Below, piece after piece: positions 40,587-64,000 of a DNA stretch of 64,000 nt; positions within the stretch are counted from its first letter, which is position 1, and each line of letters begins with the position of its first letter. Made by a program: the position numbers and the translations under genes. The DNA comes from Streptomyces durmitorensis (lineage in GTDB: Bacteria > Actinomycetota > Actinomycetes > Streptomycetales > Streptomycetaceae), in NCBI RefSeq assembly GCF_023498005.1, contig NZ_CP097289.1:2356001-2420000 (forward strand), given 5' to 3'. The notes beneath the pieces are model-generated. The model was not told where the DNA came from. It saw nothing but the letters and a program-made list of their open reading frames with translations, and did no database searches.

Positions 40587-40744
40587 TTACTCCCCTTTTC
40601 CCCCACGAGCCCCAAGAAGGGGCATACCGAGTTTGTGGTCGGTCGGTTAGACGGCTTCAACTCCCGCGTGGTTGCCCCACTTTCGGGGAGACTCTGACCA
40701 AAGTGACCCCGGGCCGAGGGGGCGGTAGTGGAAGAGTCGTATGC

Positions 40745-42827
<2,083 letters not shown>

Positions 42828-42853
<26 letters not shown>

Positions 42854-44114
42854 CCAAGGAGGTGGTGTGCGCGCTGTCGTCCGCCGCGGGGCGGGCGGCG
42901 AGCGCGACGAGGAACGCGACGGCGGCGGCCGCGCTGCCGAGCGCGAACGCCGCTCCGGGGCCGTAGGACTCGGCCAGGCGCCCCGCCACGGCGAGCGTGA
43001 CCGCCTGGCCGCCGACGAAGGCGCTCGCGGCCCACGTCATCCCCTCGGCGAGCCGCCGCGGCGGGCAGGAGCGCTCGGTGAGCGCGAAGCCGGTGATCAG
43101 GTTCGGGGCGAAGATGGCGCCGAACACGGTCACCACGAGGTACAGGCCCGTCATGCTGTCCGTCCACACCAGCGGCAGCGAGAGCAGCGCCGCGGCCGCC
43201 GTCGCCACGCGCCAGCGCGCGTACAGGCCGAAGCGCTCGGGCAGCGCAGCCATGGAGAGCCCCACGACGGCGCTCATGACGCCCATGGCCGCGTAGACGA
43301 GGCCCGCCTGGCCCGGCTGTCCCAACTCCTCGGTGAGGGCCGTGATGCCCGCTCCACAGGCGCCGAGCAGGACACCGACGAAGACGAGCCCCACGCGGAC
43401 GACGACGACCTGGCGCGGGAGCCGTTCCCGGCCGCCACGCGCGCGTGGCGCTCGCTCCGCCGTGTGGGCCGTCCGGCCCGTGGGGTGCAGCGCGAAGCCG
43501 GAGCCGCAGACGGCGACAAGGAGCGCGGCCGCCCCGAAGGCGTACGCCGGGTGGCCCGCCACGGCTGCGAGGCCCACCAGGGCGGGGCCGAGCACGAAGG
43601 ACAGCTCGTCCATGGTGCTCTCCAGGGACAGCACGGTGTTGACCAGACGGCCGTCGCCGCCCGCCCCGCGGACCAGCGGGACGGCGCGTGCGCGAGCCAG
43701 CGGGCCGATCCCGGGGATGCTGGCACCGGCGAGCACGGCGAGGACGATCAGCGCGGGTGTGGGCAGCTCGATGAGGGCGCCGAGCGTGTACGCGGCGATG
43801 GCGACGGCGTTGAGCAGCGAGAAGCCGAGGACGACGGCGCGCTGGCCGCTGCGGTCGGCGAGGCGGCCGACGACCGGGCCCATGGTCACCTGGCCGAGCG
43901 CGAGCGCGCAGGCGACCACGCCGCCCGTGGCGAGCGATCCGCTGGTCTCCGTGACCAGCAGGACGCTGCCGAACTGGATCATGGCCACGGGGAGCCTGCC
44001 GAGGAACGAGATCACCGGAAGGAGCGCTCCGGTGTGCCCGATCACTTCCCGGTAGGTGTCCAGGAGTCCCCGTGCGCCGGGTTCGTGCCGTCCGGTCTGT
44101 TCCTTCGTCGCCAT
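42828..44114 (-). CDS. MFS transporter
   Basis: A 428-residue major facilitator with twelve hydrophobic segments. Motif A-like loop 2-3 reads GPVVGRLADRSGQRAV (near 80-95), and the second half has an equivalent ALPERFGLYARWRV. The central cytoplasmic loop (HPTGRTAHTAERAPRARGGRERLPRQ) is basic. The overall pattern fits 12-span drug or metabolite exporters; the substrate is unknown. It sits tail-to-tail with glgX (26-bp overlap of the 3' ends), so there is no room for a conventional terminator between them, and it is divergent from treY with an 81-bp gap. Confidence 0.88.
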
Positions 44115-44195
44115 CGTCCGACGCTAACGACGTCCGGCCGGGCACACGCATGAGCCGATGACACGAAAGCCCGCCAGGCGGGTACGTACGTTCCC

Positions 44196-46637
44196 ATGAC
44201 GCCTGAGCGCCCAGAGCCCGCGGTGCCACCACCGCCCACCGCCACCTACCGGTTGCAGCTCCAGCCGGAGTTCCCGTTCGAGGCCGCCGAAGCGGCCGTC
44301 CCGTACCTGGCCTCGCTGGGAGTCTCGCATCTGCATCTGTCCCCGGTGCTCGAGGCCGTTCCGGGGTCCGCGCACGGCTACGACGTCGTGGACCACGCGC
44401 GCGTGCGCGACGAGCTGGGCGGCGAGGAAGGGCTGCGGGCCCTTTCGAGCACCGCGCGGGCACACGGTCTGGGTCTCGTCGTGGACATCGTGCCGAACCA
44501 CATGGCAGCGGTTCCGCGCCACAACCACGCCCTGTGGGAGGTGCTGCGGGAGGGCCCCCGTTCGCCCTACGCCCGGTGGTTCGACATCGACTGGGACGCG
44601 GGCGGCGGGCAGGTGCTGCTTCCCGTGCTCGGACGCGGGGTCGGGGACGAGCTGGAGCGCCTGCGGGTCGACGGGAACGAGCTGCGCTACCACGAGCACG
44701 CGTTCCCTCTCCGTGAAGGCACCGGGGAGCTGCCGCTTCCTCAGCTCCTGGACGCCCAGTGGTACCGGCTCGCGTGGTGGCGCCTTGCCCGCACCGAGCT
44801 CAACTACCGGCGCTTCTTCACCATCTCGGACCTCATCGGGGTGCGCGTCGAGGACCCCGAGGTGTTCGACGCGACCCACGCGAAGATCCTCGAACTGCTC
44901 CGGGAAGGGGTCGTGGAGGGGCTGCGGGTCGATCACCCCGACGGGCTCGCGGACCCGGGGGCGTACCTCCAGCGGCTCCAGGAGGCCACGCGCGGGCGCT
45001 GGACGGTCGTGGAGAAGATCCTCGCCGACGGGGAGCAGCTGCCCGCCGCGTGGCCCGTCGCGGGCACCACCGGGTACGACGCGCTGCGCCACCTCGACGG
45101 CCTGTTCACGGACCCGGCGGGGGCGGGTGAGCTCCTGGGCCAGTACCGGAGGTTCACGGCGCCCGCGGTGGACCGGGGCGGCGACTGGGGGGCGACGGTG
45201 CGGCGCGCCGCGTACAAGGTGCTCACCCATGAGCTGGCCGCCGAGACCGACCGCCTCACGCGCGAGGCGACCGCGCTCTGCGCCCCGGACCCCGCGCTGC
45301 GCGACCACGCGCCGTGGGCGCTGCGCACCGCGCTCGTGGAACTGCTCGTGCGTCTTCCCGTCTACCGGCCCTACGTCTCCGGGGGCGCCGAACCGGCTTC
45401 GGTGCTCACGGTGAGGGCCGCCGACGAGGCCAAGGCCGCCTTCGCCGTGCGGGAGGAGGCCGAGGCGGTCGATGTCGTACGCGACCTGGTCCTCGGGCGT
45501 CTGGGGTCCGGGCCCGCGCTCGACGGCTTCCGCGCGCGGTTCGCGCAGACCTCGTCGGCGCTGCGGGCCAAGGCGGTCGAGGACACGGCGTTCTACCGGC
45601 ACGCGCCGCTCCTCTCGGCAGCCGAGGTGGGGGGCTCTCCCGAGCGGCCCGCGGTGACCCCGGAGGCCTTTCACGCCTACTGCGCGCGCGTGCAGCGCGA
45701 CTGGCCGTACGCGGGGACGGTGCTCAGCACGCACGACACGAAGCGCAGCGCGGACGTACGGGCGGGCATCGCCGTGCTCACGCAAGTCCCGGAGCGGTGG
45801 GCCGACCTCCTGGTCGACGTGACCGAGCAGACCGCGCGCGTGGGCGGCACCAGCGCGCCGGATCCCCAACTGGCCTGGGCGGCCTGGCAGACGGCCGTCG
45901 GTTTCGGCTTCCCCTACGACGAACGGCTCCAGAAGGCCCTGCTCAAGCACGTGCGCGAGGCGGGCCTGCACACGAGCTGGACCGAGCCGAACGAGGCGTA
46001 CGAGAAGGCGGTGACGGCGTTCGTGGAGGCCGGTCCCTGCGGGCCGCCGCTCTACACGGTCGCGGAGTTCGCGGGCGGCCTGCGGCCCCATGTGCGGGCC
46101 AACGTCCTGGGGGCCACGCTGCTCCAGCTGGCGATGCCGGGGGTGCCCGACCTCTACCAGGGCACCGAGGGCGAGTACCGGGCCCTGGTGGATCCGGACA
46201 ACCGGCGGCCCGTGCGGTTCCAGGCGCATGTCCTGGAGTACCTGGAGCAGCACCGTGACCGCTGGGACCTCTCCGAGGAGAAGCTGGCCCTCACGGCGAC
46301 CGCGCTGCGGCTGCGCAGGCGCCGCCCGGAGCTGTTCGGCGGCGCGGCGACGTACGAGCCGCTGGCGGCGCGGGGCCCCGGCGCGGCGCACTGCGTGGCT
46401 TTCGCTCGCTCCGGAGAGGTGATCGCGGCGGTGACCCGGCTCTCCTTGCGCCTGGCCGATGCGGGCGGCTGGCGGACGACGGAACTCGCGCTTCCGGAAG
46501 GGCGGTGGGTAGATCTGCTCACCCGGGAGCGGGAGTTCACGGGGCACGCGCGCGTGGAGGAGCTCTTCGGGGAACTGCCGGTGGTGCTTCTGGAGCGCGT
46601 GTCCACTGACCCCGCTGCCTCAGGGGCGGACGAGTAG
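44196..46637 (+). CDS. treY: Malto-oligosyltrehalose synthase
   Basis: An 813-residue GH13 enzyme that isomerises the reducing-end glucose of maltodextrins to an alpha,alpha-1,1 bond. Starts with the TreY signature ATYRLQLQPEFPFEAAEAAVPYLASLGVSHLHLSPVLEA and PGSAHGYDVVDHARV, with VVDIVPNHMAA downstream. Catalytic residues are Asp246 (GLRVDHPDGLADP), Glu273 (WTVVEKILADGE) and Asp514 (LSTHDTKRSADVRAG), and the C-terminal segment has PDLYQGTEGEYRALVDPDNRRPV. The length fits the family. Partner enzymes are TreZ (49946) and the debranching enzyme (40745). Its stop overlaps the convergent P450 gene by 18 bp. Confidence 0.96.
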   Translation: MTPERPEPAVPPPPTATYRLQLQPEFPFEAAEAAVPYLASLGVSHLHLSPVLEAVPGSAHGYDVVDHARVRDELGGEEGLRALSSTARAHGLGLVVDIVPNHMAAVPRHNHALWEVLREGPRSPYARWFDIDWDAGGGQVLLPVLGRGVGDELERLRVDGNELRYHEHAFPLREGTGELPLPQLLDAQWYRLAWWRLARTELNYRRFFTISDLIGVRVEDPEVFDATHAKILELLREGVVEGLRVDHPDGLADPGAYLQRLQEATRGRWTVVEKILADGEQLPAAWPVAGTTGYDALRHLDGLFTDPAGAGELLGQYRRFTAPAVDRGGDWGATVRRAAYKVLTHELAAETDRLTREATALCAPDPALRDHAPWALRTALVELLVRLPVYRPYVSGGAEPASVLTVRAADEAKAAFAVREEAEAVDVVRDLVLGRLGSGPALDGFRARFAQTSSALRAKAVEDTAFYRHAPLLSAAEVGGSPERPAVTPEAFHAYCARVQRDWPYAGTVLSTHDTKRSADVRAGIAVLTQVPERWADLLVDVTEQTARVGGTSAPDPQLAWAAWQTAVGFGFPYDERLQKALLKHVREAGLHTSWTEPNEAYEKAVTAFVEAGPCGPPLYTVAEFAGGLRPHVRANVLGATLLQLAMPGVPDLYQGTEGEYRALVDPDNRRPVRFQAHVLEYLEQHRDRWDLSEEKLALTATALRLRRRRPELFGGAATYEPLAARGPGAAHCVAFARSGEVIAAVTRLSLRLADAGGWRTTELALPEGRWVDLLTREREFTGHARVEELFGELPVVLLERVSTDPAASGADE

Positions 46638-47762
46638 CAGGCGCGGGGCCCGCGCCATGAGCCCCTGGGGCGCGGGCCTGAAGCCGGGCGCCCAGCGCAG
46701 GCCCGGCATGACGTCGAGCAGGGCCCGCAGGCCGCACTCGGCGGCGAGCCCCGCCAGGGTGGCGGCCGGGCAGAAGTGCCGTCCGGCGCCGAACGCGAGG
46801 TGGGCCGGGTCCGTGCGGAAGATGTCGTAGCGGTCGGGGTCGGCGAAGCGGAACGGGTCGCGTCCCGCGGAGCCTATGAGGCAGGCGACGACGGCTCCCG
46901 CGGGCAGTGTGGTGCCGCCCAGGGACACCGGCACGCTCGCGCGGCGCAGCACGACGGGGGTGGGCGGATCCCGGCGCAGGGACTCGGCCCAGGCGGCGGG
47001 TATCAGCCCCGGACGGGTGCGTACGAGGTCCAACTGGGCGGGGTGGTCGAGGAGGTTGGCCAGGAAGGAGGCCAGCGCGAGGGCGGTGGCCTCGCCGCCG
47101 CCGGTGAGGAGCGTCCCGGCAAGGCCGGTGACGGCCTCGTTGGAGAGGGCCTGCCCGTCCACCCGGGCGCCGCACAGCACGGAGAGCAGGTCCGCGCCGG
47201 GGTGGGCGCGCCGCCGCGTGACGTGGGGCCGCAGGAGGCCGTTCAGCTCCGGGTGGAGGCCGCCGGGACGCGCGAGCCCTCCCGTACGGCACCACTCCCG
47301 TACCCGGGCTGCGTCCTCCCAGGGCAGCCCGAGCGCGGCGACGGCGGCCGCGGCGGGCAGCCAGGCACTGAACTCGGCGACGAGATCGACCTCGCGCCGT
47401 CCGGCCAGGCGCCGGGCGAGGACGTGGGCGGTGCGCTCGGCGGCGGCCCGCAGCAAGGGCTCGATGAGCCTCCGATAGGCCGGGCCCGGCCCGTCGGCCG
47501 CAGGCCCGAACCGCACGTCACCGAGCGCGGCCCGCACATCCGCGTACCGGCTGAGCAGCCAGGCTCCGAGGAGCTCGTCGTGGACGAGGGGGAAGTCCTC
47601 ACGGAGGGCGCGATAGACCGGATAGGGGTCACGCTCCACGCCAGGGGCCAGGAGACTGGGCAGCACGGCGCGCGAGGCGGCCCCGGCCCGTCCGGCGTTC
47701 GGGGACGAGCTCGGCGGAGCCGGTGACAGGCGGTGCCCGCTGGGGGCCGAGCTCGTTGACAC
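46620..47762 (-). CDS. Cytochrome P450 (short, atypical)
   Basis: A 380-residue soluble P450. The heme loop is AFGAGRHFCPAATLAGL with thiolate Cys331, the ExxR helix is ESLRRDPP, and the I helix reads LAGTLLTGGGEATALALASF. It is about 20-25 residues shorter than usual Streptomyces P450s, and the missing part seems to be the B'-C region: after RFGPAADG the expected D-x-P-x-H-x-x-x-R heme-propionate segment is replaced by PGPAYRRLIEPLL. The I-helix acid/alcohol pair is also shifted (E-A-T). The enzyme may bind an unusual substrate or be partly degenerate. No ferredoxin gene is adjacent. Start ATG 47762. Confidence 0.85.
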   Translation of the reverse strand: MSTSSAPSGHRLSPAPPSSSPNAGRAGAASRAVLPSLLAPGVERDPYPVYRALREDFPLVHDELLGAWLLSRYADVRAALGDVRFGPAADGPGPAYRRLIEPLLRAAAERTAHVLARRLAGRREVDLVAEFSAWLPAAAAVAALGLPWEDAARVREWCRTGGLARPGGLHPELNGLLRPHVTRRRAHPGADLLSVLCGARVDGQALSNEAVTGLAGTLLTGGGEATALALASFLANLLDHPAQLDLVRTRPGLIPAAWAESLRRDPPTPVVLRRASVPVSLGGTTLPAGAVVACLIGSAGRDPFRFADPDRYDIFRTDPAHLAFGAGRHFCPAATLAGLAAECGLRALLDVMPGLRWAPGFRPAPQGLMARAPRLLLVRP

Positions 47763-47841
47763 GGTTTCAGGGCACCATCGGAGGGCGCCGTGCGCAGTTC
47801 CATACGCCCATTCGGGTGACGCTGTGGGGCAAGGCCGCCGC

Positions 47842-47898
47842 GGGATGACATCCCTTGGGTCGGGCGCTTGACACCCGCCCTACTGCGTGGCGTACTGC
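47842..47898 (+). promoter_or_regulatory. Candidate promoter and palindrome in the P450/M14 divergent region
   Basis: GGGATG-A-CATCCC (47842-47854) is a perfect 13-bp palindrome. Fourteen bases on, TTGACA (47868-47873) and TACTGC (47893-47898) could be -35/-10 elements (19-bp spacing, slightly long) for the carboxypeptidase gene starting at 47925. The 162-bp region also must contain the P450 promoter on the other strand. Confidence 0.45.
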
Positions 47899-47924
47899 GG
47901 ATTGCGTCAGCGGACAAGACGGGG

Positions 47925-49175
47925 GTGAGTCAACTGGCGGAGCAGAGGTATCCCAATGTGGCCGAACTCGTGATGTCCGCCCGGGAGTTGGCGGCCCACC
48001 GCCCCGAGCTCAGCTCCCTGCGCCAGGTGGGCTCGTCGCGCGCAGGAAGGCCACTGCACCTGCTGTCCGTCGGCCGCTCCCGCCGCGCCGTCCTGATCGT
48101 CGCCGGCGCGCACTCGAACGAACCGACCGGCGGTTCGACGCTGCTCAACCTCGCCGAGTGGGCCCTGCGGGACGAGGACCTGCGCTCGGACACCTCCTGG
48201 CACTTCCTCCTGTGCGCCGACCCGGACGGCGCGAACCTGCACCGCACGCCCGCCCCGCGCACCCTGTTCGACTACCACCGGCACTTCTTCCGCCCCGCGG
48301 GCCCCGAGCAGCCGGAGTGGTCGCCCTCGGTGCTTCCGCCCGACCGGCTGCCGCCCGAGACCCGCACCCTGACGGGCGTCATCGACGAGCTGCGCCCCTA
48401 CCTCCAGGTGTCCCTGCACGGAACCGATCTCGGCGGCAGCTGGGTGCAGTTGACGCGGGACATACCGGGGCTCGCCGAGCCGTTCGCCAAGTCCGCGGCG
48501 GAGCTGCACATCCCGGTGGAGACGGGGGCTTCGGACGCCGCGGGCTGGCCGGTCTCGGGGCCGGGGGTGCATGTGCTGCCGGGCCCCGGGTCCGCGGCCG
48601 CCTATCCGAGCCTCCCCGAGGACGCCCGGCACACCACCTGGCACCACGCCCACCGGTACGGCGGCCTGACCGCCATCGTCGAGGTCCCGATGTGGGCCAG
48701 CGACCTGGTGGACGACCTGACCCTCCATCCCTCCCCGGTGCTCGCGCTGCGCGGCTTCTCGCAGCGGCTGCGCCATGACGCGCGCCTGGTCGAGGACATC
48801 CTCCGGGAGGCGCTGCCGCGGCTCCCCGAGGCGCAGGGGCCACTGCTGCGCGCGGCGCGCTGGGCACTCGACCTGGTGCCCGGCCTGGCCGACGACTGGG
48901 CGGGGCTGCCGCCCGCCGGGACGTCGATGGCGTACATCGGCAGCGTCGACGCCTTCGGACGCCGTCTTCCGCTGCGGGCCGCCGCGATGCTGCTGCGGGT
49001 CCTTGACGCGGCGGGCGACCGGGCCGCGCCCCGCCTCGAACGGCTCGTCCTGCACTGGAGCGACGCGTTCGCCGAGCGGTTCGGGGCGCGCTGGGTGCCG
49101 CTGGCGGACCAGGTCGAGCACCAGTCACGGACAACGGTCGCGGCCGTGCGCCACGCGCGCGTGCGGGGCGATTGA
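47925..49175 (+). CDS. M14-family zinc carboxypeptidase-like protein
   Basis: A 416-residue protein with the M14 metallopeptidase layout. Zinc ligands: His63 and Glu66 in VLIVAGAHSNEPTGGSTLL (H-x2-E) and His165 in LQVSLHGTDLGG; catalytic Glu is probably Glu253 in TAIVEVPMW. It lacks a signal peptide, so it is likely cytoplasmic. About 150 helical residues follow the catalytic domain (VLALRGFSQRLRHDARLVEDILREALPRL). Substrates could be peptides or modified amino acids. GTG 47925 is used; the longer frame beginning with TTG at 47868 would lie on the candidate -35 element. Confidence 0.8.
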   Translation: MSQLAEQRYPNVAELVMSARELAAHRPELSSLRQVGSSRAGRPLHLLSVGRSRRAVLIVAGAHSNEPTGGSTLLNLAEWALRDEDLRSDTSWHFLLCADPDGANLHRTPAPRTLFDYHRHFFRPAGPEQPEWSPSVLPPDRLPPETRTLTGVIDELRPYLQVSLHGTDLGGSWVQLTRDIPGLAEPFAKSAAELHIPVETGASDAAGWPVSGPGVHVLPGPGSAAAYPSLPEDARHTTWHHAHRYGGLTAIVEVPMWASDLVDDLTLHPSPVLALRGFSQRLRHDARLVEDILREALPRLPEAQGPLLRAARWALDLVPGLADDWAGLPPAGTSMAYIGSVDAFGRRLPLRAAAMLLRVLDAAGDRAAPRLERLVLHWSDAFAERFGARWVPLADQVEHQSRTTVAAVRHARVRGD

Positions 49176-49226
49176 CGGCACGCACAACTGACCGCACGCA
49201 CAACGCGCGCCGTCCCCGAAGGGGCT

Positions 49227-49778
49227 TCACGAACCGGAGAGCCGGAAGCCCATCTTCCCGAAGCTGATCTGATCGCCGTCCTGGACGACGGCCGCACCGA
49301 TCACCCTGCGGCCGTTCACCGACGTGCCGTTGGTCGACCCGAGGTCGCGCAGCACCCACATGCCGCCCTGCCTGCTCAGCTCGGCGTGCACCCGGGAGAC
49401 GGTCTCGTGGCTGAGCCTGAGCCCGTTCGCGGGGTCGCGGCCGATCCGCAGCGGATGCGGGTTCGTCGGCACCGGCAGGAGCAGCTTCGGCAGCTTCTCG
49501 GCCTGCCAGGCCCTGCGCAGCCTGACCGTGAACCCGGAGACCGCGCCGACGGTGCCGAACACCGCCCGCGAGAAGCGCCCCTCGGTCCGCAGGTCGGCGG
49601 TGAGCGCGGCGAGTTCGTCGGGCTGGCGAGCGGCGAGCGCCAGCTCCATGCGCCGCACGAACGTGTCGTGCGACAGCTTGCCGAGGGCAGCGCCCTCCCT
49701 GAGCACCTCAAGTGCCCTGTCGCGCTCGGCGTCGGTCAGCCGCGCGGGGTACGTGTGGATCTCAAAGGACGACGTCAC
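49227..49778 (-). CDS. DUF1707-FHA domain protein
   Basis: A 183-residue cytoplasmic protein. Residues about 12-65 are a DUF1707 (SHOCT-like) module: LTDAERDRALEVLREGAALGKLSHDTFVRRMELALAARQPDELAALTADL. A short linker leads to an FHA domain (about 108-180): RIGRDPANGLRLSHETVSRVHAEL and DLGSTNGTSVNGRRV, with the conserved G-R, S-x-x-H and N-G residues that bind phosphothreonine. It is likely a phospho-dependent adaptor for Ser/Thr kinase signalling. GTG start at 49778. A small CCCC-GAA-GGGG hairpin (49214-49224) separates it from the convergent M14 gene. Confidence 0.9.
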   Translation of the reverse strand: MTSSFEIHTYPARLTDAERDRALEVLREGAALGKLSHDTFVRRMELALAARQPDELAALTADLRTEGRFSRAVFGTVGAVSGFTVRLRRAWQAEKLPKLLLPVPTNPHPLRIGRDPANGLRLSHETVSRVHAELSRQGGMWVLRDLGSTNGTSVNGRRVIGAAVVQDGDQISFGKMGFRLSGS

Positions 49779-49945
49779 CCTGCTGATTGTCGGTCAGCTC
49801 GGCCGGGGTGTCCAGAAAACGCGGAACGACCCCGGACCGATCACTTCTGCAGCACGATGGACGGGCGTCACCACTGATGACGTACGGATGAAGACAGATC
49901 GACACGGATGACCGGCAGCGGATGACAGACAAGGGGGAACTGTCA

Positions 49946-51691
49946 GTGGAGTTCGAGGTGTGGGCACCGGGAGCGGAGCGCGTGGCGCTGCTGTGCGAGG
50001 GCACCACGCGCGCGATGGAGCGCGCCGACGGCCGGGCCGGCTGGTGGACGGCGGAGGCGGAGGCCGCCGACGGGGCGCGCTACGGCTTCTCGCTCGACGG
50101 CGGCCCCGTGCTGCCCGATCCCCGCTCGCGGCGCCAGCCGGACGGCCCCGACGGGCTCAGCGCCCTCGTCGACCACGACCGGTACGCGTGGCGCGCGCCC
50201 TGGGCGGGGCGCGGGGTGCGGGACGCGGTCCTGTACGAGCTGCATGTGGGGACGTACACACCGGACGGCACGCTCGACTCGGCCGCGGGGCGGCTCGGCC
50301 ATCTGGCCGAACTGGGCGTCACACATGTGGAGCTGATGCCGGTCTGCCCGTTCCCGGGGCAGCACGGCTGGGGCTACGAGGGCGTGTCCCTGTGGGCCGT
50401 GCACGAGCCGTACGGCGGCCCCGAGGCACTGAAACGCTTCGTCGACGCGGCGCACGCGCACGGCATGGGTGTCGTGCTCGACGTGGTCCACAACCACCTC
50501 GGGCCGTCCGGCAACCATCTGCCCGCGTTCGGCCCCTACTTCACGGACACCCACCACACGCCGTGGGGCGCCGCGGTCAACCTGGACGCCCCCGGTTCGG
50601 ACGAGGTGCGCGCGTATCTGATCACAAGCGCGCTCGCGTGGCTGCGCGACTACCGTCTGGACGGCCTGCGTCTGGACGCGGTGCACGCGCTGCGGGACAC
50701 GCGCGCGTGCCACTTCCTGGAGGACCTTTCGGCGGCCGTGGACGAGCTGGCCGGGGAACTCGGCAGGCCGCTCTCGCTGATCGCCGAGTCCGACCAGGGC
50801 GATCCGCGGGTCGTCACCCCGCGCGCGCAGGGCGGTCTGGGCCTGCACGCGCAGTGGAACGATGACTTCCACCACGCGCTGCACACCGCGCTCACCGGCG
50901 AATCGCACGGCTACTACGAAGACTTCGCCCACGCCCCCTTCGCCGCGCTCGCCAAGACGTTCACGGGCGGCTTCTTCCACGACGGAACGTACTCGACCTT
51001 CCGGGGGCGCAGGCACGGCCGTCCCGTGGACCGCGCCCGGACGCCCGCGTACCGCTTCCTCGGCTATACGCAGACCCACGACCAGATCGGCAATCGCGCA
51101 CAAGGAGACCGGCTCTCCGCCTCCCTCTCCCCCGGCCTGCTCGCCTGCGCCGCCGTACTCACCCTCACAGGACCGTTCACGCCGATGCTGTTCATGGGCG
51201 AGGAGTGGGGCGCCGCCACACCCTGGCAGTTCTTCACGGACCACACCGATCCCGAGCTCGCGGATGCCGTGCGCCGGGGCAGGCGGCGGGAGTTCGCCGC
51301 GCATGGGTGGGCCGAGGACGACATCCCGGATCCGCAGGACCCGGCCACCAGGACCCGCTCCTGTCTCGACTGGGCCGAGCCCCTGACCGACCCGCACGCG
51401 CGCGTGCTGGCCTGGTACCGCGAGCTGATCGCCCTGCGCCGCGCCCTCGGCGACCTCCTCGACCCCGATCTGGCGGCGCTGCGGGTCGCGTACGACGAGA
51501 GCGCGCGCTGGTTCGCGGTCCGGCGCGGTGATCTGCGGATCGCCGTGAATATCGGCAAGGAGGCGGTCGACATCCCGTTGGGCGGCCGGGGAGCGCGAGT
51601 GCTCGCGGCGTGGGAGCCGGTCACCGCGCCGGGCGCGGACGGGCTGCTGCGGCTGCCCGCCGAGTCGTGTGCGGTGCTCGCGACGCCATGA
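49946..51691 (+). CDS. treZ: Malto-oligosyltrehalose trehalohydrolase
   Basis: A 581-residue GH13 enzyme that releases trehalose from malto-oligosyltrehalose made by TreY. An N-terminal CBM48-like domain (VEFEVWAPGAERVALLCEG) is followed by the barrel with YELHVGTYTPDGTLDSAAGRL and VVHNHLGPSGNHL. Catalytic residues: Asp244 (DGLRLDAVHAL), Glu281 (SLIAESDQGDPR) and Asp379 (GYTQTHDQIGNRAQGDR). FMGEEWGAATPWQFFTDHTDPEL is typical for TreZ. GTG 49946 is preferred because AAGGGGGA lies seven bases upstream and homologues begin at this point; ATG 49922 is the alternative. It is separated from treY by three unrelated genes. Confidence 0.96.
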   Translation: MEFEVWAPGAERVALLCEGTTRAMERADGRAGWWTAEAEAADGARYGFSLDGGPVLPDPRSRRQPDGPDGLSALVDHDRYAWRAPWAGRGVRDAVLYELHVGTYTPDGTLDSAAGRLGHLAELGVTHVELMPVCPFPGQHGWGYEGVSLWAVHEPYGGPEALKRFVDAAHAHGMGVVLDVVHNHLGPSGNHLPAFGPYFTDTHHTPWGAAVNLDAPGSDEVRAYLITSALAWLRDYRLDGLRLDAVHALRDTRACHFLEDLSAAVDELAGELGRPLSLIAESDQGDPRVVTPRAQGGLGLHAQWNDDFHHALHTALTGESHGYYEDFAHAPFAALAKTFTGGFFHDGTYSTFRGRRHGRPVDRARTPAYRFLGYTQTHDQIGNRAQGDRLSASLSPGLLACAAVLTLTGPFTPMLFMGEEWGAATPWQFFTDHTDPELADAVRRGRRREFAAHGWAEDDIPDPQDPATRTRSCLDWAEPLTDPHARVLAWYRELIALRRALGDLLDPDLAALRVAYDESARWFAVRRGDLRIAVNIGKEAVDIPLGGRGARVLAAWEPVTAPGADGLLRLPAESCAVLATP

Positions 51692-57472: not shown

Positions 57473-57961
57473 ATGACCGACGCACCGCTGCCCGCGGAGC
57501 TGCTCCTCGACCGGGACGTCTCCGACGACCTGCGGCGGGAGCTGGTCTCCGCGCTGGAGGGCCTCGGCGTCCACACGGCGCGGGTGCGCCGCGCGGTCGA
57601 CCACCGGGGCGCTGCGGACATCCCCTGGATCATGCTGGCGTCCCTGCCCCTACAGGCGTTCCTGAGCGGGCTCGGCGCGGAGGCGGTCAAGGACTCGTAC
57701 ACGGCGTTCAAGGATGTCGTACGCCGGTCGTCGCGCGCGGCGGATCCCGCTCATGGCACTGACCCCGCCGGTCCCGCTCCTCGGCCGCTGGTGCTCCAGG
57801 ACCGGCGTACGGGACTGCGCGTGGTCCTGGAGCCGGGTCTGCCGGGCGAGGCGTACGAGCAGCTCCTGGGCCTCGACCTGGCACGGTTCAGCGAGGGGCC
57901 GCTGCACTACGACAGCGCGCAGGGCCGCTGGCGCTCCGAACTGGACGAAGCGGCCGGCTGA
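57473..57961 (+). CDS. Small protein with EACC1-like layout
   Basis: A 162-residue protein, first gene of the terminal three-gene group. It begins with a short helical segment (SDDLRRELVSALEGLGVHTARVRRAVD), has a central amphipathic/hydrophobic helix (DIPWIMLASLPLQAFLSGLGAEAVKDSYTAFKDVVRR, about 49-86), then a basic/Pro linker and a beta-hairpin-like end (PLVLQDRRTGLRVVLEPGLPGEAYEQLLGL). This strand-helix-hairpin order is like effector-associated constant component 1 (EACC1), a small partner in multi-component conflict systems of multicellular bacteria. The assignment is by layout only. GGGAAGGA precedes ATG 57473; the next gene starts 41 bp later. Confidence 0.6.
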   Translation: MTDAPLPAELLLDRDVSDDLRRELVSALEGLGVHTARVRRAVDHRGAADIPWIMLASLPLQAFLSGLGAEAVKDSYTAFKDVVRRSSRAADPAHGTDPAGPAPRPLVLQDRRTGLRVVLEPGLPGEAYEQLLGLDLARFSEGPLHYDSAQGRWRSELDEAAG

Positions 57962-58002
57962 CCCGCCGGGGAACGGAGAACGGGGAACGGGGGTGGTGTG
58001 AC

Positions 58003-60324
58003 GTGGGGCCGCATGCTGACCTGGGCCGTGCGGAAGAGGCGTGTTCCGGGGCGGAAGAGGCTTGCTCCAGGGGTGAGTCGAGCCTGGCGCGCCGCGACGG
58101 GGACGCCGCCGAGCGGGACTTCCTGGATGCGCTCGCCCTGGTCGGGGAGCGGGACAGAGAGGGCCGGGACGGGGAGGGCCGGGACGGGGAGGGCCGGGAC
58201 AGGGTGGACGACGACGGGGGAGGCCGCGAGGCCATCCTGGGCCGCGTCCATGTCGGGCTCGGGCGGGTCCGCCTCGCGGCGGGGGACGCCGAGCAGGGTG
58301 CCGTCGAGTTCGAGCGGGCGCACGAGTTGCGGCCCGACGATGCCGGGCCCCTGCACTGGCTGGGGTGCGCGGCGGCACACCGGGCGGCGTACCAGGCCGC
58401 GGACGCGTACTTCACCTCGGCACTCAGGTGTGCGGGACCCCACCGCCGATCGCTGGTCCAACGCGCTTACGCACGCGCGCGGTTGGGGCGGTACGCGGAT
58501 GCGCTGGACGATCTGCGCGCGGCGAGCGACAAGGACGTGCTGGACGCCGACGCACGCTGGGTGATGGAGGCGCTGTCCGGTGGCGGCGCGTCGGGTGAGC
58601 TCGCCCTGCTGCTGCGGAAGGCGGCGCTGGCCGGGATGCCGGGTGGTTCAGGAGGGTGCGGCGAGTCCGGGACGGGTCGGGCTGGGGGTCGGGCTGGGGC
58701 TGGGGGTCGGGCTTGGGACCGGGATCGGGTCGCCCTCCTGATCGATGCCTCCCGGCGGCTGCCCGGTCCGGTGGAGGGTGAGTTCGTGCCGCTGTACGCG
58801 GTCGCCCTCGTACTCGGCGGGCGCCGCGAAGCCGCCGTCGAACTCCTGGAGGACGCCGCCCGACGCCACCCCGCCGACCACCGGATCACCCACACGCTGG
58901 CCCTCGCACTGCTCAACTCGGCTGACACACAAGGCCGTACGGACGATGACGCCGCGCAACGCTGGGAGCGGTGCGTCGCCGCCTGGGGCGCGCTGCTGCA
59001 CGACGACGCCTTCTGGGAACACCGGCGCGCATCTGCCGAGGCCAGGTTCGGCGTGCCCGTGGAGGAGGCGCTCGACGCGGGGCTCCGGGCCGATCTGCGG
59101 GAGCTACTTGAGCGGCGGATGCCGGAGGGCGACGCAGGGGGCCGCGTGCCGCCGGGGGCGCTGCTTCAGCGGGAGGCGGATGCCGCGAAGATCGTGGCCG
59201 GGGTGGGCGGGTTCGCGGCCGGGCTCGGTGGTGAGACCCTGGTGTGCGGGCCGTTGCGTGTCGCGGGGCTTGGCCTGGTCGACGACTTCGGGGCGTTCGC
59301 CGCGACCGGCGTCGGCACCGATGCTGATTCCGGTGCGGGTGCGGACGTGGGCGCGGGTGCGGGTTCAGGTGCGGGCGCGGACGCCGATGCGGGTGCCGGT
59401 ACCGGTACCGACGGCCGGGCTCAACTGACCTACGCCTTCTCCGAACTCGGCTTCGCCCAGCTCCTGCTGAAGCAGGGCAAGCCCGCCGAAGCTCTCGCCG
59501 CCCTCACCGAGTTGCGCTGCCGCAGGTGCCGCGAGCGGACGACCACGAACCAGGCGAGCACAACTCAGGCGAGCACAACTCGGCGTAAAGACGCGGCGAG
59601 TCCGCCCCCCGTGGCCGCCGCCATCTGCGAACCGGGCTGCGGCCGCTTCGACGAGCTGAACCCCTCCTACGCCGGGCACCCCGACAAGCACCGCCGCCTC
59701 GCGCGCGACGCCCGCACCCTCGCGCTGCGGGCCCGGCTCGATCTGGGGCGCAGTCAACTCACCGCTGATCGCCCCGACTTCGGAGCTGCGGCGGCATCCT
59801 GGCGGCGCGCCCTCGTGCACAGCAGGGAGCTGGAGCGCTACCGCGAGACCCAGGCAGCCGTCGTCGACCTGGCGCTCGGCGCGGCGCGCGCGGCGCATCG
59901 CGCGGGGGATCCGACGCGGGCCGTGGACACGCTCGACGCGGTGCGTGCCATTACCGGAGCCAATGAAAGAGGCCGCCTGGAGGGGCAGTTGGCGCGGCTG
60001 CTCGCCGACCGAGGCATCTCGGCGGTCAACCGGGACGGCACCTCGCTCGACGCGCCCGCCGAGGATCTGCGGCGCTCCGTCGCCTTCAACCCGCATCTGC
60101 TGCGCGCACAGGTCAGCCTCGGTGTCGTACTGCGCGGGCTCGCGGCGCGGCGCTGGCGTTCGGGGAGCGTGTCCGGGGCCAGGGCGACCCTGCAAGAAGC
60201 ACTGGACCAACTCACCGCGGCGCTCGTCCACTTCCCCGGCGATCCCGAGCTGACCGAGCAGCGCGACGCGGCCGTCGCCGACCTGGATCACGTCACGGCA
60301 GAACAGCAAGAGAGCGGGAGGTGA
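58003..60324 (+). CDS. TPR-like repeat protein with low-complexity linkers
   Basis: A 773-residue cytoplasmic protein built mainly of helical pairs. TPR-like units include LGRVRLAAGDAEQGAVEFERAHELRPDD, HRAAYQAADAYFTSALRCAG, YARARLGRYADALDDLRAASDKD, YAVALVLGGRREAAVELLEDAARRHPADH and, in the last third, RAAHRAGDPTRAVDTLDAV. Low-complexity inserts interrupt them: a (EGRDG)n stretch at about 53-67 encoded by a 15-bp tandem repeat, a Gly/Arg run near 220-245 and a Gly/Ala/Asp run near 440-470. Around 505-555 two CxxC-like pairs occur (ELRCRRCRER, CEPGCGRF), possibly a small zinc site. GTG 58003 follows GGGGGTGG. It is nine bases from the CHAT gene and likely forms a complex with it. Confidence 0.75.
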   Translation: MGPHADLGRAEEACSGAEEACSRGESSLARRDGDAAERDFLDALALVGERDREGRDGEGRDGEGRDRVDDDGGGREAILGRVHVGLGRVRLAAGDAEQGAVEFERAHELRPDDAGPLHWLGCAAAHRAAYQAADAYFTSALRCAGPHRRSLVQRAYARARLGRYADALDDLRAASDKDVLDADARWVMEALSGGGASGELALLLRKAALAGMPGGSGGCGESGTGRAGGRAGAGGRAWDRDRVALLIDASRRLPGPVEGEFVPLYAVALVLGGRREAAVELLEDAARRHPADHRITHTLALALLNSADTQGRTDDDAAQRWERCVAAWGALLHDDAFWEHRRASAEARFGVPVEEALDAGLRADLRELLERRMPEGDAGGRVPPGALLQREADAAKIVAGVGGFAAGLGGETLVCGPLRVAGLGLVDDFGAFAATGVGTDADSGAGADVGAGAGSGAGADADAGAGTGTDGRAQLTYAFSELGFAQLLLKQGKPAEALAALTELRCRRCRERTTTNQASTTQASTTRRKDAASPPPVAAAICEPGCGRFDELNPSYAGHPDKHRRLARDARTLALRARLDLGRSQLTADRPDFGAAAASWRRALVHSRELERYRETQAAVVDLALGAARAAHRAGDPTRAVDTLDAVRAITGANERGRLEGQLARLLADRGISAVNRDGTSLDAPAEDLRRSVAFNPHLLRAQVSLGVVLRGLAARRWRSGSVSGARATLQEALDQLTAALVHFPGDPELTEQRDAAVADLDHVTAEQQESGR
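58159..58203 (+). repeat. 15-bp tandem repeat inside the TPR-like gene
   Basis: GAGGGCCGGGACGGG is repeated three times (58159, 58174, 58189; the last with changes at its end), coding for an EGRDG pentad. The copies are in frame, so number changes would preserve the reading frame. Confidence 0.85.
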
Positions 60325-60333
60325 CGGCGGCCG

Positions 60334-63300
60334 ATGCTCGCCTATGAAGAACTCCGCATCCGCATCCGCCCCATCGGCATGTCCCGCTATCTCGTCACCG
60401 CCAACGGCCCCGCGACCGCCGCCGAAGTGATCGCGGTGAACGGCGAGCCTGCCGCGTTCCGTGCCCAGTGGGACCAGCTGATCTCGGCCGAGCTCGGCCT
60501 GTCCCCCATGGGCGAGCAGCACACGGTGGCGCAGCTCAGGGGCCTTGGCCGCGGCGTCTTCCGCCTGCTCTTCGGAGCGGGCGAAGGCGAGCGGCACCCG
60601 GAAGGTGTCGGTGCGTGCGTCGGCCTGGCGTTGGAGCGGGCGCAGCGGATGCGGCCCGCGCGCGGGCTGCGGATCCGGTTCGACGTGCCGGAGGAGCTGC
60701 GCGACCTGCCGCTGGAGGCGCTGTGCGCGCCGCCGGGGCAGCCGCAGCAGTCGCTCGCCCTCAACCACGGTTATTCGCTGGTGCGTTCGCTGCCCGGTGG
60801 CCCGCTGGGCCAGCGCCTTCCCGAGCCCGCGGACGAGCCGAGCCTGATCCGGCTGCTCGTGGCCTGTGCGTCACCCGTCGGCGCGGGCCTGCCGCCGCTG
60901 CGTCCCGACGCCGAAGTAGCCGCTCTGCGCCTTGAGTTGCCCGAGGTCGCCGTGCAGACCACGGTGCTCGGACGGGCGACGCGCAAGAGCCTGGAGGCGG
61001 CCATCGGCGCCCACTCCCCCTTGCCGACCGCACTGCTGCTCATCGCGCACGGAACGTACGACCACGAACTCGGCAAAGGCGTGGTGGCCCTGGAGACCGA
61101 GGACGGCGGCGTCGACCGCGTGCCAGCCGATCTGCTCAGCGGGATCCTCCTGAAGGCGCCGGGGCTGCGCCTCGTGACGCTCAACCTCTGTTCCGGGGCG
61201 GACAGTTCGCTCGCTGAGCCGTTCTCCGGGCTCGCCCAGGCACTGATCGGCGGGGGTGTGCCCGCCGTGGTGGCGATGCGGGGGCGGGTGAGTGACGTGT
61301 CGGCGGGGCAGTTCAGCCCGGAGCTGTTCAAGGGGCTCGCGGCGAACCGCACCATCGACGAGGCCATGGGCGCCGCGCGCCGCCGCATCTCGCATCTGCC
61401 GGGGCACACGGCGGTGGAGTGGGCGACGCCCACGCTGTTCCTGCACGAGTCCTGTCGGCAGGGCTGGCTGTTCAAGGCGCGGGAGGTACGGGACGACGGC
61501 GGCGCCGTCGCCGATCCGCTGCGCGAGGGCGCGGACGCGCTGCGGGCCTTCCAGAGCCCGGTCGGGCACGTCGACTCGACGGTCCTGATCGGTGCGGCGC
61601 GGTACCAGCGCGATCTGGGGCAGTGGGCGCAGGTGCAGCGGATACTGCGGGCCGAGACCCGTCAGTTCGAGGACGAGCAGCGGCGGCTGCGGGCGGAGGC
61701 GGCGTTCGAACTCGCCTGGGACGAGCTGGAGAAGCTCTGCGCCCTGCTGGCGGCCGAGCGGGACGCGGACGCCGTCGTCGACCAGTTCGCGTCCCTGCGC
61801 GACGCGCTGCCCGGCCCGCCGCCGGCCTGCCTCACGGCGGAGGTGGAGCGGCTCCGGCACCTCACGGGGCTCGCGGAGCGGGCGCGCGCCGCCGAGGAGG
61901 CCGGTGACTGGGGCGAGGCGATCGCGCGCTACGAGGAGCTGCTCACCGCTCACCCGGCGGGCATCAGGGGCACGGCGGCCCGCCTCGCCGCGGCCCGCGA
62001 CGAACTCCACGTGGCCGAGGCCTTCGCAGCCGCCGAGCGGGCCCGCCACCGCACCGACTGGGCGACCGCCGCAGCCGCGTACGCCGATGTCGTCGCCCGG
62101 CGCTCCGGCCATGAGGGTGCCAGGGCGGGCGCCGAGTACGTGGGCGGCCGGGTCGCGCAGGACGCCGGGGAGTGGGGCACGGCTGAGGCGGGGTACGTGG
62201 CGTGCGCGGGGCTCGCGGATTCCGTGGCGCGGGTGGCGTACGTCCGGGGGCGGGGGGCGGCCGAGGCGGGGGATTGGGGGGCAGCGTACGAGGGGTTCGC
62301 TGAGGCGGAGGCGCTGAGGGCGGAGGCACTGAGGGCGGAGGGTGGCGACCTGCGGCCGACCGTCGAGAACCCCGGAGAGAACGCCGGAGAGAGCCCCGGA
62401 GAAGACCCCCAAGAGGCCCCTGAGGAGAGCCCCGGCCCCGACCTCCCCTCCTGGCACGCCTACGCCTCCGGGCGAGTCGCCGAGGGTGAGCGTGCCTGGG
62501 CCGAAGCCGTCGAGGGGTTCGCCGGCGCCGACGGCTTCCTGGACGCGGGCGTACGGCTGCTGTACGCGCGGGGCCGGGGTGCCGCGGACCGGGAAGCCTG
62601 GCCCGAGGCGCTTGTCGACCTGGAGGCCGCCGCCGCTCAAGGGTGGGACACGGAGCCGTGGTTGAGCGGGCTGCGGGAGCGGACCTACCGAGGGGCTCTG
62701 GACGCGGCGGCGGTCGGGAACTGGGCGGACGCGCTGGCGAACCTCGACCTGTTGCCCCCTGGCTACCGCGATGTGGGGCCACGCAAGTGCTACGTCCAGG
62801 GCCAGGTCGCGGCCTCCGGCGGCGACTGGCCGAAGGCGGCGGACGCGTTCGGTGAGTGTGTCGCGGCGGGCCCGGCCGATGCGGGCTGCGGATTCGACGA
62901 CGCCGACGCGCTGCGGACGTACGCCGAGGGGCGCCGCTGCCAGGACGAGTCGCGCTGGCAGGACGCGCTCGCCTGCTTCACCCGGCTGTCGTCGGACCTC
63001 CTCGACGTGCCCGACCGCCTCCTGTACGCACGCGGCCGGGCAGCCGACGCCCGCGCCGAGTGGGCCGGCGTGATCGACGGCTTCGGCCGACTGCCCGACA
63101 CCTACGCCCATGGCGAGGTCCGCGACCGCCGCCGCTACGCCCGCGCCCGCGTCGCCGCCGAACTGCGCGGCGACTGGGGAGCGGTCCTGAGCCTGCTCAC
63201 GGACGTACCGGACACGGGCCGCGCCGGCGCGGTCGGCGCCCTGCGCCGCAAGGCGGAGGGCCGCCTCGCGGAGGCGGCGGGCGACTGGGCCGGAGCGTGC

Positions 63301-64000
63301 GAGATCTATGCAGGGGCGCTTGCCGCAGACGCGGAAGGGGGCGGCGATTGCGCGGGGGATGTCCGCGCGGAGGGGACGCACACGGAGGACTCCCCAACGG
63401 CGTACGGCGACGCGGAGAGCGCCCACGCGACGTACGCCGACGCGGCGACCGCTGACGCGCAGGGCAGCGGCGGTCACACGGCCGATGCGCAGTACACCGA
63501 CACGACGGGCACCGAAGCCGAGGACAGCAGCACGGCGGACGCCGCCACGACGGCCACTGACGCGCAGGACAGCCACGCACAGCACACCGACACGACGGAC
63601 GCCGAAGCAGAGGACGGCGGCGGCACGCAGCGCGACGGCAACCGGGCCAGTGGCACGCCGGGGGTCCGCGCGCAGGACACCGAAGCGAAGGACGACAGCA
63701 CGCCGGACGGCGACACGCGGGCCGCTGACGCGCGAGACAGCGGTACACACGATCGCGGCACGCCGGACCGCCTCACGCACCCCCCCGACATGCACGCCCC
63801 CGACACGCAGGACGCCAACGCACAGGACAGCACCCCGCACTCCCCCACCACGCGAGACAGCAACCCCGACCCCTGCCCAACCGGCCCCCACGACGCCCCC
63901 CACCAAGAGCTCCACCACCTCCACCGCTACGCCCTCGCCCGCACCCACGAGCTCGCCGGTGCGTGGGAGGACGTCTGTCGTGCCTACGAGGCGCTGCCCG
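60334..64000 (+). CDS. CHAT-domain (caspase-fold) protease with W-containing helical repeats, partial
   Basis: At least 1222 residues are in the window with no stop, so the C-terminus is missing. Residues 1-200 form an N-terminal domain (YEELRIRIRPIGMSRYLVTA, IRFDVPEELRDLPLEAL). The CHAT domain (about 170-370) has both catalytic residues: His239 in LLLIAHGTYDHELGKGVVAL and Cys286 in LVTLNLCSGADSSLAEPFSG, followed by GGGVPAVVAMRGRVSD. From about 515 to 998 there are roughly twelve repeats of about 36-40 residues with the pattern Y-A-x-G-R-x-A-x5-W-x2-A (for example YARGRGAADREAWPEALVDL and GDWPKAADAFGECVAAG). A Thr/Asp/Ala/Gln-rich insertion of about 190 residues (1000-1189) splits the array, which resumes at RYALARTHELAGAWEDVCRAYEALP. 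ATG 60334 follows GGGAGGTGA. Likely a self-activated or partner-controlled protease. Confidence 0.85.
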   Translation, partial: MLAYEELRIRIRPIGMSRYLVTANGPATAAEVIAVNGEPAAFRAQWDQLISAELGLSPMGEQHTVAQLRGLGRGVFRLLFGAGEGERHPEGVGACVGLALERAQRMRPARGLRIRFDVPEELRDLPLEALCAPPGQPQQSLALNHGYSLVRSLPGGPLGQRLPEPADEPSLIRLLVACASPVGAGLPPLRPDAEVAALRLELPEVAVQTTVLGRATRKSLEAAIGAHSPLPTALLLIAHGTYDHELGKGVVALETEDGGVDRVPADLLSGILLKAPGLRLVTLNLCSGADSSLAEPFSGLAQALIGGGVPAVVAMRGRVSDVSAGQFSPELFKGLAANRTIDEAMGAARRRISHLPGHTAVEWATPTLFLHESCRQGWLFKAREVRDDGGAVADPLREGADALRAFQSPVGHVDSTVLIGAARYQRDLGQWAQVQRILRAETRQFEDEQRRLRAEAAFELAWDELEKLCALLAAERDADAVVDQFASLRDALPGPPPACLTAEVERLRHLTGLAERARAAEEAGDWGEAIARYEELLTAHPAGIRGTAARLAAARDELHVAEAFAAAERARHRTDWATAAAAYADVVARRSGHEGARAGAEYVGGRVAQDAGEWGTAEAGYVACAGLADSVARVAYVRGRGAAEAGDWGAAYEGFAEAEALRAEALRAEGGDLRPTVENPGENAGESPGEDPQEAPEESPGPDLPSWHAYASGRVAEGERAWAEAVEGFAGADGFLDAGVRLLYARGRGAADREAWPEALVDLEAAAAQGWDTEPWLSGLRERTYRGALDAAAVGNWADALANLDLLPPGYRDVGPRKCYVQGQVAASGGDWPKAADAFGECVAAGPADAGCGFDDADALRTYAEGRRCQDESRWQDALACFTRLSSDLLDVPDRLLYARGRAADARAEWAGVIDGFGRLPDTYAHGEVRDRRRYARARVAAELRGDWGAVLSLLTDVPDTGRAGAVGALRRKAEGRLAEAAGDWAGACEIYAGALAADAEGGGDCAGDVRAEGTHTEDSPTAYGDAESAHATYADAATADAQGSGGHTADAQYTDTTGTEAEDSSTADAATTATDAQDSHAQHTDTTDAEAEDGGGTQRDGNRASGTPGVRAQDTEAKDDSTPDGDTRAADARDSGTHDRGTPDRLTHPPDMHAPDTQDANAQDSTPHSPTTRDSNPDPCPTGPHDAPHQELHHLHRYALARTHELAGAWEDVCRAYEALP

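Follow-up and report, generated by a model that had tools for sequence, protein, structure and literature searches.

The 64,000-nucleotide stretch of Streptomyces durmitorensis analysed here (contig NZ_CP097289.1, positions 2,356,001 to 2,420,000 of the forward strand; the whole stretch is called the window) ends in three close-set plus-strand genes. They open a conserved operon of seven genes, A-G, that combines a CHAT protease with Hsp70 chaperones. Its predicted products are a small CHAT partner (A), a TPR protein (B), a giant CHAT protease (C), a free-standing J-like protein (D), the exchange factor GrpE (E), an Hsp70 (F), and a second Hsp70 reduced to its ATPase domain and carrying TPRs (G). 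The description is drawn directly from gene content and order, conservation, the retained His/Cys pair of the active site, the motifs of the Hsp70 and the model of the J-like protein. A tentative reading, given slightly less than an even chance, is that the protease is gated by Hsp70: a dedicated Hsp70 set would hold C inactive until it is released. The docking, gating, trigger, target and outcome in that reading are what we infer.

In the window, gene A (162 residues, 57473..57961) and gene B (773 residues, 58003..60324) are separated by 41 bp, and B and C by 9 bp. Gene C begins at 60334, is still open at the window edge (64000), and continues in the genome to window-equivalent position 66642, giving a protein of 2102 residues. 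(All positions past 64000 are counted on from the window.) The CHAT domain of C (PF12770, residues 106-367, 60649..61434) scores 76 bits in Pfam against a cut-off of 24 (E 4.6e-21). Its catalytic-site residues His239 (61048..61050) and Cys286 (61189..61191) are kept in all 25 aligned rows, which represent 23 distinct genomes carrying the A-G cassette, one of them entered twice, and one CHAT-WD40 protein. Within the window the domain is followed by W-containing helical repeats (61558..64000), for which a simple pattern finds 18 matches in the full-length protein. In the translation these repeats are broken at 63370-63930 by low-complexity sequence in which Asp, Thr, Ala and Gly abound. A J-like module (about 64522-64767) and a TPR-like tail lie past the edge. 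Protein B contains weak TPRs (TPR_14, 31.3 bits versus a cut-off of 23.5), and its residues 290-741 (58870..60225) share homology with the C-terminal region of C (28%, E 1.5e-15); matches labelled B from loci with the downstream part alone belong to the rear of C and do not enter the B counts. The initial annotation, made from the letters and a list of reading frames, had described the close spacing of the three genes, the CHAT domain with its intact dyad, the W-containing repeats of the third protein and the TPR-like nature of the second, and all of this was borne out.

The length of C ranges from 1658 to 2204 residues across 21 long rows, and the protein is highly repetitive. One locus (L139) has a C frame of just 824 residues, which may be due to a frameshift. 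Among 120 listed relatives of C are proteins from Actinomadura, Saccharopolyspora, Gandjariella and one Thermoanaerobaculia metagenome-assembled genome. The CHAT region of C has no sequence match in the PDB. PADLOC matched C to BovA (2.7e-05), but since the match is confined to the CHAT region it is taken as a shared domain and the BovA identity was rejected; an NCBIfam match to HetF (E 0.085) was disregarded.

The A-G operon is conserved as a unit. A contig search with two peptide patterns from A yielded 22 loci, 19 in Streptomyces and one each in Actinomycetospora, Amycolatopsis and Glycomyces; because of the patterns used, this collection favours relatives that retain those peptides. A, B and C follow one another in order in 19 of the 22 loci, in four genera. 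The remaining three are a locus that stops within B (L134), one with a deletion (L144, described below) and one with A in a CHAT-WD40 context (L147). That the gene order is kept in other genera argues against chance reading frames or a chance neighbourhood. D is found 3' of C in every locus whose sequence extends past C (17/17), and F and G are present in all 11 extended loci. Overlaps of 4 nucleotides are frequent at the C-D, E-F and F-G junctions. In ten loci the apparent gap between A and B is 383-1705 bp, and in each of the ten the reading frame of B extends 5' without a stop as far as A or into it. The large gaps are probably an artefact of start choice, for which the open frame is weak evidence, since long open frames are common in GC-rich DNA. 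Several genomes are doubled in the family tables (e.g., S. smaragdinus as L146 and G311). The initial annotation had proposed a three-gene unit and asked whether the genes occur together. They do so, but the conserved unit is one of seven genes.

The genes past 64000 are D (66639-66998), E (67030-67491), F (67488-69632) and G (69629-71524), all on the plus strand. It had been suggested that a protease substrate might lie downstream; inspection revealed a J-like protein, GrpE and two Hsp70s instead, and neither a gasdermin nor another obvious substrate was recognised among the genes just downstream of C.

Protein D (119 residues) belongs to no family. It is modelled as a J-domain fold that lacks the HPD motif: HPD is found in none of 28 D rows (21 distinct genomes), and the DnaJ sequence model (PF00226) matches none of 16 D proteins at E 10. 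A copy of the J-like domain is also built into C, in all 21 of the long CHAT proteins, and here too HPD is absent from the module (0/21). The letters HPD do occur past residue 900 in 3 of 25 C proteins, never within the J-like module. Pam16 is an example of a J-like protein that lacks HPD; such proteins attach to the Hsp70 machinery but do not stimulate it.

E is a GrpE (Pfam 4.9e-20) and F is a full Hsp70 (PF00012, 1.4e-110). Of the 12 rows of F with at least 700 residues, 11 have the ATPase signature motifs and one lacks VPAYF. G has a Pfam Hsp70 match (5.5e-29) plus TPRs, and its alignment with DnaK structures is restricted to the ATPase domain. The entries for G from L133, L135, L141, L142 and L146 in the family table are cross-matches to F. 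Hsp70s cycle on their clients under the control of J-proteins and GrpE, and some atypical members, Ssz1 for example, have a regulatory role.

Gene A has no Pfam match, even at E 10. Its 187 homologues include proteins from Pseudonocardiaceae, Streptomyces, Amycolatopsis, Actinomycetospora and Actinophytocola, and precomputed Pfam domains are lacking in all of the 120 that were listed. In the tail W-R-S-x-L-D-E (residues 153-159, 57929..57949) the six named residues are invariant in 49 of 49 aligned homologues. The initial annotation had seen in A an EACC1-like protein, which the sequence tests do not support. The Pfam EACC1 model (PF19953) matches none of the 49 homologues and nothing in the S. 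durmitorensis genome, although 37 of 61 genomes of the genus do match, and hhalign of the A profile against 27 EACC1 proteins gives a probability of 0.1. As a gauge of the single conserved TM helix expected of EACC1, the best hydropathy over 19 residues reaches at least 1.6 in 17 of 49 A proteins and 14 of 27 EACC1 proteins, a measure that fails to separate the two groups. The AF2 model of A is of middling quality (pLDDT 76.7, pTM 0.66). It has a strand-helix-hairpin order similar to that of EACC1, and no convincing structural relatives of the model were found. No match to A was found in phage or plasmid collections.

In 121 genomes of the genus, with at most 30 candidates scored per genome, A was found at 11 places in 10 genomes, three of which are the cassette. 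At seven of the eight non-cassette sites A is the immediate 3' neighbour of a CHAT-WD40 gene, with an overlap or a gap of no more than about 30 nucleotides; at the eighth (G060), no CHAT neighbour is present in the stretch read. The idea of a small constant partner of a protease is thus supported in part, without the EACC1 membership once attached to it. A is best described as a CHAT partner that occurs with two kinds of CHAT protein; its logic is EACC1-like, and membership in EACC1 was negative by the tests made.

In S. durmitorensis the operon is followed by further genes. On the plus strand these are H (71521-73017; two hydrophobic segments plus a coiled coil, no clear family), I (73014-73493; 159 residues, one hydrophobic segment, no family) and J (73497-75647). 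The FNIII label of J is weak; it comes from the layout in Kaur et al. and from inspection by eye, fn3 by itself matching at E 0.23. Facing them on the minus strand, from 75664 to about 81160, is a convergent set encoding a kinase (Pkinase 1.3e-16), a PP2C phosphatase (PP2C_2 3.2e-30), a vWA protein (VWA 0.0032, below the cut-off) and GAP1 (GAP1-C 6.5e-54, GAP1-M 7.3e-18). The vWA, PP2C and kinase genes stand together (module K-L-M), as in a TerY-P triad, and CxxC pairs follow the kinase. PADLOC models of the PD-T4-6 kinase match this kinase (L003:664-2022, minus strand; best 2.1e-15), probably through the shared kinase fold. In protein I (L002:17014-17493), Asp22 in the hydrophobic (TM) segment is invariant in 21 aligned sequences and resembles the Asp that carries ions in stators of the MotB/ExbD type. 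H (2 TM) and I (1 TM) are reminiscent of MotA/MotB, ExbB/ExbD or ZorA/ZorB. Profile searches of the PDB returned proteins with coiled coils for H and, for I, two rows put down to chance; they neither support nor exclude such a likeness, and no claim of it is made.

These genes do not always accompany the operon. In one set of six cassette loci, five have genes H, I and J with the convergent set, while the contig of the sixth (G081) stops in C; of the 11 extended loci, five have them. They are absent from three extended loci whose sequence runs on for over 20 kb past G (Actinomycetospora, S. smaragdinus and Glycomyces), and in the other three the contig ends about 2 kb or less after G. A search of 18 cassette genomes for GAP1 matched 13, one of them (G310) weakly and on another contig; no match was found in G305, G306, G307, G311 or G312. 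A-G is read as the core, and H-J with the GAP1/kinase set as an attachment in some Streptomyces. One locus (G280, L088) has about 3.8 kb extra between J and the kinase, where there is little in the other full cassettes. Relatives of H are also found at second-tier loci without A-G (L068-L086, L093-L126), where of 17 loci I follows in 14, a vWA protein in 10 and a same-strand kinase in 6; this second system looks like a TerY-P-like set sharing the membrane pair. Both core and attachment are affected in Streptomyces sp. MZ04 (L144:3819-4916, draft contig), in which a deletion of about 22.65 kb, measured on the S. durmitorensis layout, begins at codon 71 of A and ends midway through GAP1, the flanks remaining collinear. 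The scar joins the first 71 codons of A to inner GAP1, and the flank alignments overlap by about 20 nucleotides.

Elsewhere in the window, glycogen-debranching and maltooligosyl-trehalose genes were noted by eye at 40703-51691; they flank a P450 gene and one resembling a zinc carboxypeptidase. By eye, the surroundings of the cassette in the window contain no evident defence island.

From what is known of Hsp70s, J-proteins, Pam16 and Ssz1, the chaperones of the operon may be a private machine acting on C. The private Hsp70 set would dock on C through its J-like and TPR modules and, while docked, keep the CHAT protease inactive. An unfolded or foreign protein, perhaps from a phage, might then draw Hsp70 off or re-set it, so that C would be freed to cleave a target and bring about a protective or suicidal response. 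A might act on the CHAT module, either as a regulator or as the first substrate. In some Streptomyces the membrane pair (H and I) and the kinase, PP2C, vWA and GAP1 proteins could add further signals. A broader statement, held somewhat more tentatively than the gating itself, is that the operon is a chaperone-thresholded proteolytic switch sensing stress or phage, in which a change in chaperone occupancy and not a specific ligand would fire the protease; it would be a core of its own, joined in some Streptomyces to GAP1 and TerY-P-like modules. A defence role for the operon is plausible.

Several other explanations overlap with Hsp70 gating and with each other, and their probabilities need not sum to one. 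The products of D-G might merely fold or assemble the huge CHAT scaffold, with no switching, while A and B sense the signal directly. The length and repetitiveness of C and the position of the chaperone genes after C in the operon are in keeping with this. The J-like domain fused in C, in every long row, and the ATPase-only Hsp70 point instead to a standing interaction, although they leave room for a role in folding alone, which seems rather unlikely. It is also unlikely, somewhat more so, that C is an internal proteostasis or developmental protease, unconnected with phages or plasmids, whose targets are regulatory or damaged proteins of the cell itself. Such a role would be consistent with the failure of A to match phage and plasmid collections, with window neighbours that look metabolic by eye, and with a lack of notable PADLOC matches besides the CHAT and kinase domains. 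The patchy presence of the genes (A in 10 of 121 genomes of the genus, the cassette in 3) and the loss by deletion in one strain fit an accessory system.

A further alternative is that the locus is at heart a GTPase-centric conflict system of the GAP1 type, the CHAT genes being just another of its variable effectors. GAP1-M and GAP1-C are found by Pfam, and Hsp70 with GrpE and an ATPase-only Hsp70, and kinase with PP2C and vWA, correspond to themes 2 and 3 in the available text of Kaur et al. However, DO-GTPase2 is absent from the S. durmitorensis genome by a search that did give a match in the control, C. glutamicum (none was found for DO-GTPase1 either, but its control search likewise gave nothing). 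No GAP1-N model matches the GAP1 protein at E 1, its start codon having been chosen by hand. A-G stands without the attachment in all three loci having more than 20 kb beyond G, and 5 of the 18 cassette genomes have no GAP1 match. A GAP1-centred system is improbable. Least probable, and already a slender chance, is an EACC1-caspase two-gene system into which a TPR gene was inserted, the chaperones being mere neighbours. It would account for a small gene 5' of a caspase-like gene, for the similar strand-helix-hairpin order of A and for the association of A with CHAT-WD40 genes. Against it stand the negative EACC1 results for A and the conservation of the chaperones along with the gene set.

If Hsp70 gating of C is true, it would provide a compact, testable model of an immune or death protease that reads the protein-folding load, and could explain the repeated appearance of Hsp70 and GrpE genes at conflict loci of actinobacteria. 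The HPD-less J-like domain, both free and fused to the protease, could serve as an adaptor handle for locating related systems. A literature search did not find a bacterial caspase-like protease co-encoded with its own Hsp70 machine, although the source data of Kaur et al. may list the locus.

The GAP1-N2 GTPase systems (Kaur et al. 2020, eLife 52696) are among the closest known systems. In the available text of that paper, Hsp70 with GrpE and an ATPase-only Hsp70, and kinase with PP2C and vWA, are two of three non-overlapping GAP1-N2 themes. The S. durmitorensis locus is alike in having HSP70, GrpE and a second HSP70 without the peptide-binding domain, the kinase, PP2C and vWA proteins, and GAP1-M with GAP1-C. 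It differs in uniting both themes in one place, in lacking DO-GTPase2, and in having a core that is found at other loci in the absence of GAP1; nowhere in the text available does the string CHAT appear. The EACC1-caspase two-gene systems (System 4 in the same text) likewise pair a small constant protein with a caspase-like protease whose C-terminal part varies, here TPR or WD40. A is unmatched by the EACC1 model or profile, however, and its position varies, being 5' of the CHAT gene with B between them in the cassette and 3' of it in the WD40 pairs.

The TerY-P triads and CoCoNuTs, as far as the available part of eLife 94800 describes them, also bring together vWA, PP2C, a kinase with a zinc ribbon and Hsp70-like units. 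Their partners are McrBC-type GTPases and nucleases, whereas here the partner is a CHAT protease with a full Hsp70 and GrpE. In Craspase, TPR-CHAT is likewise reported to be a CHAT protease controlled through repeat domains; in C, by contrast, the CHAT domain is N-terminal and its region lacks a PDB sequence match. A precedent is offered by bNACHT25 (PLoS Biol 2025), a bacterial immune protein with chaperone-mediated sensing, for which the available text reports that host DnaJ is required for phage sensing. That protein uses the host's own DnaJ, whereas the A-G operon supplies the protease with private chaperones of its own.
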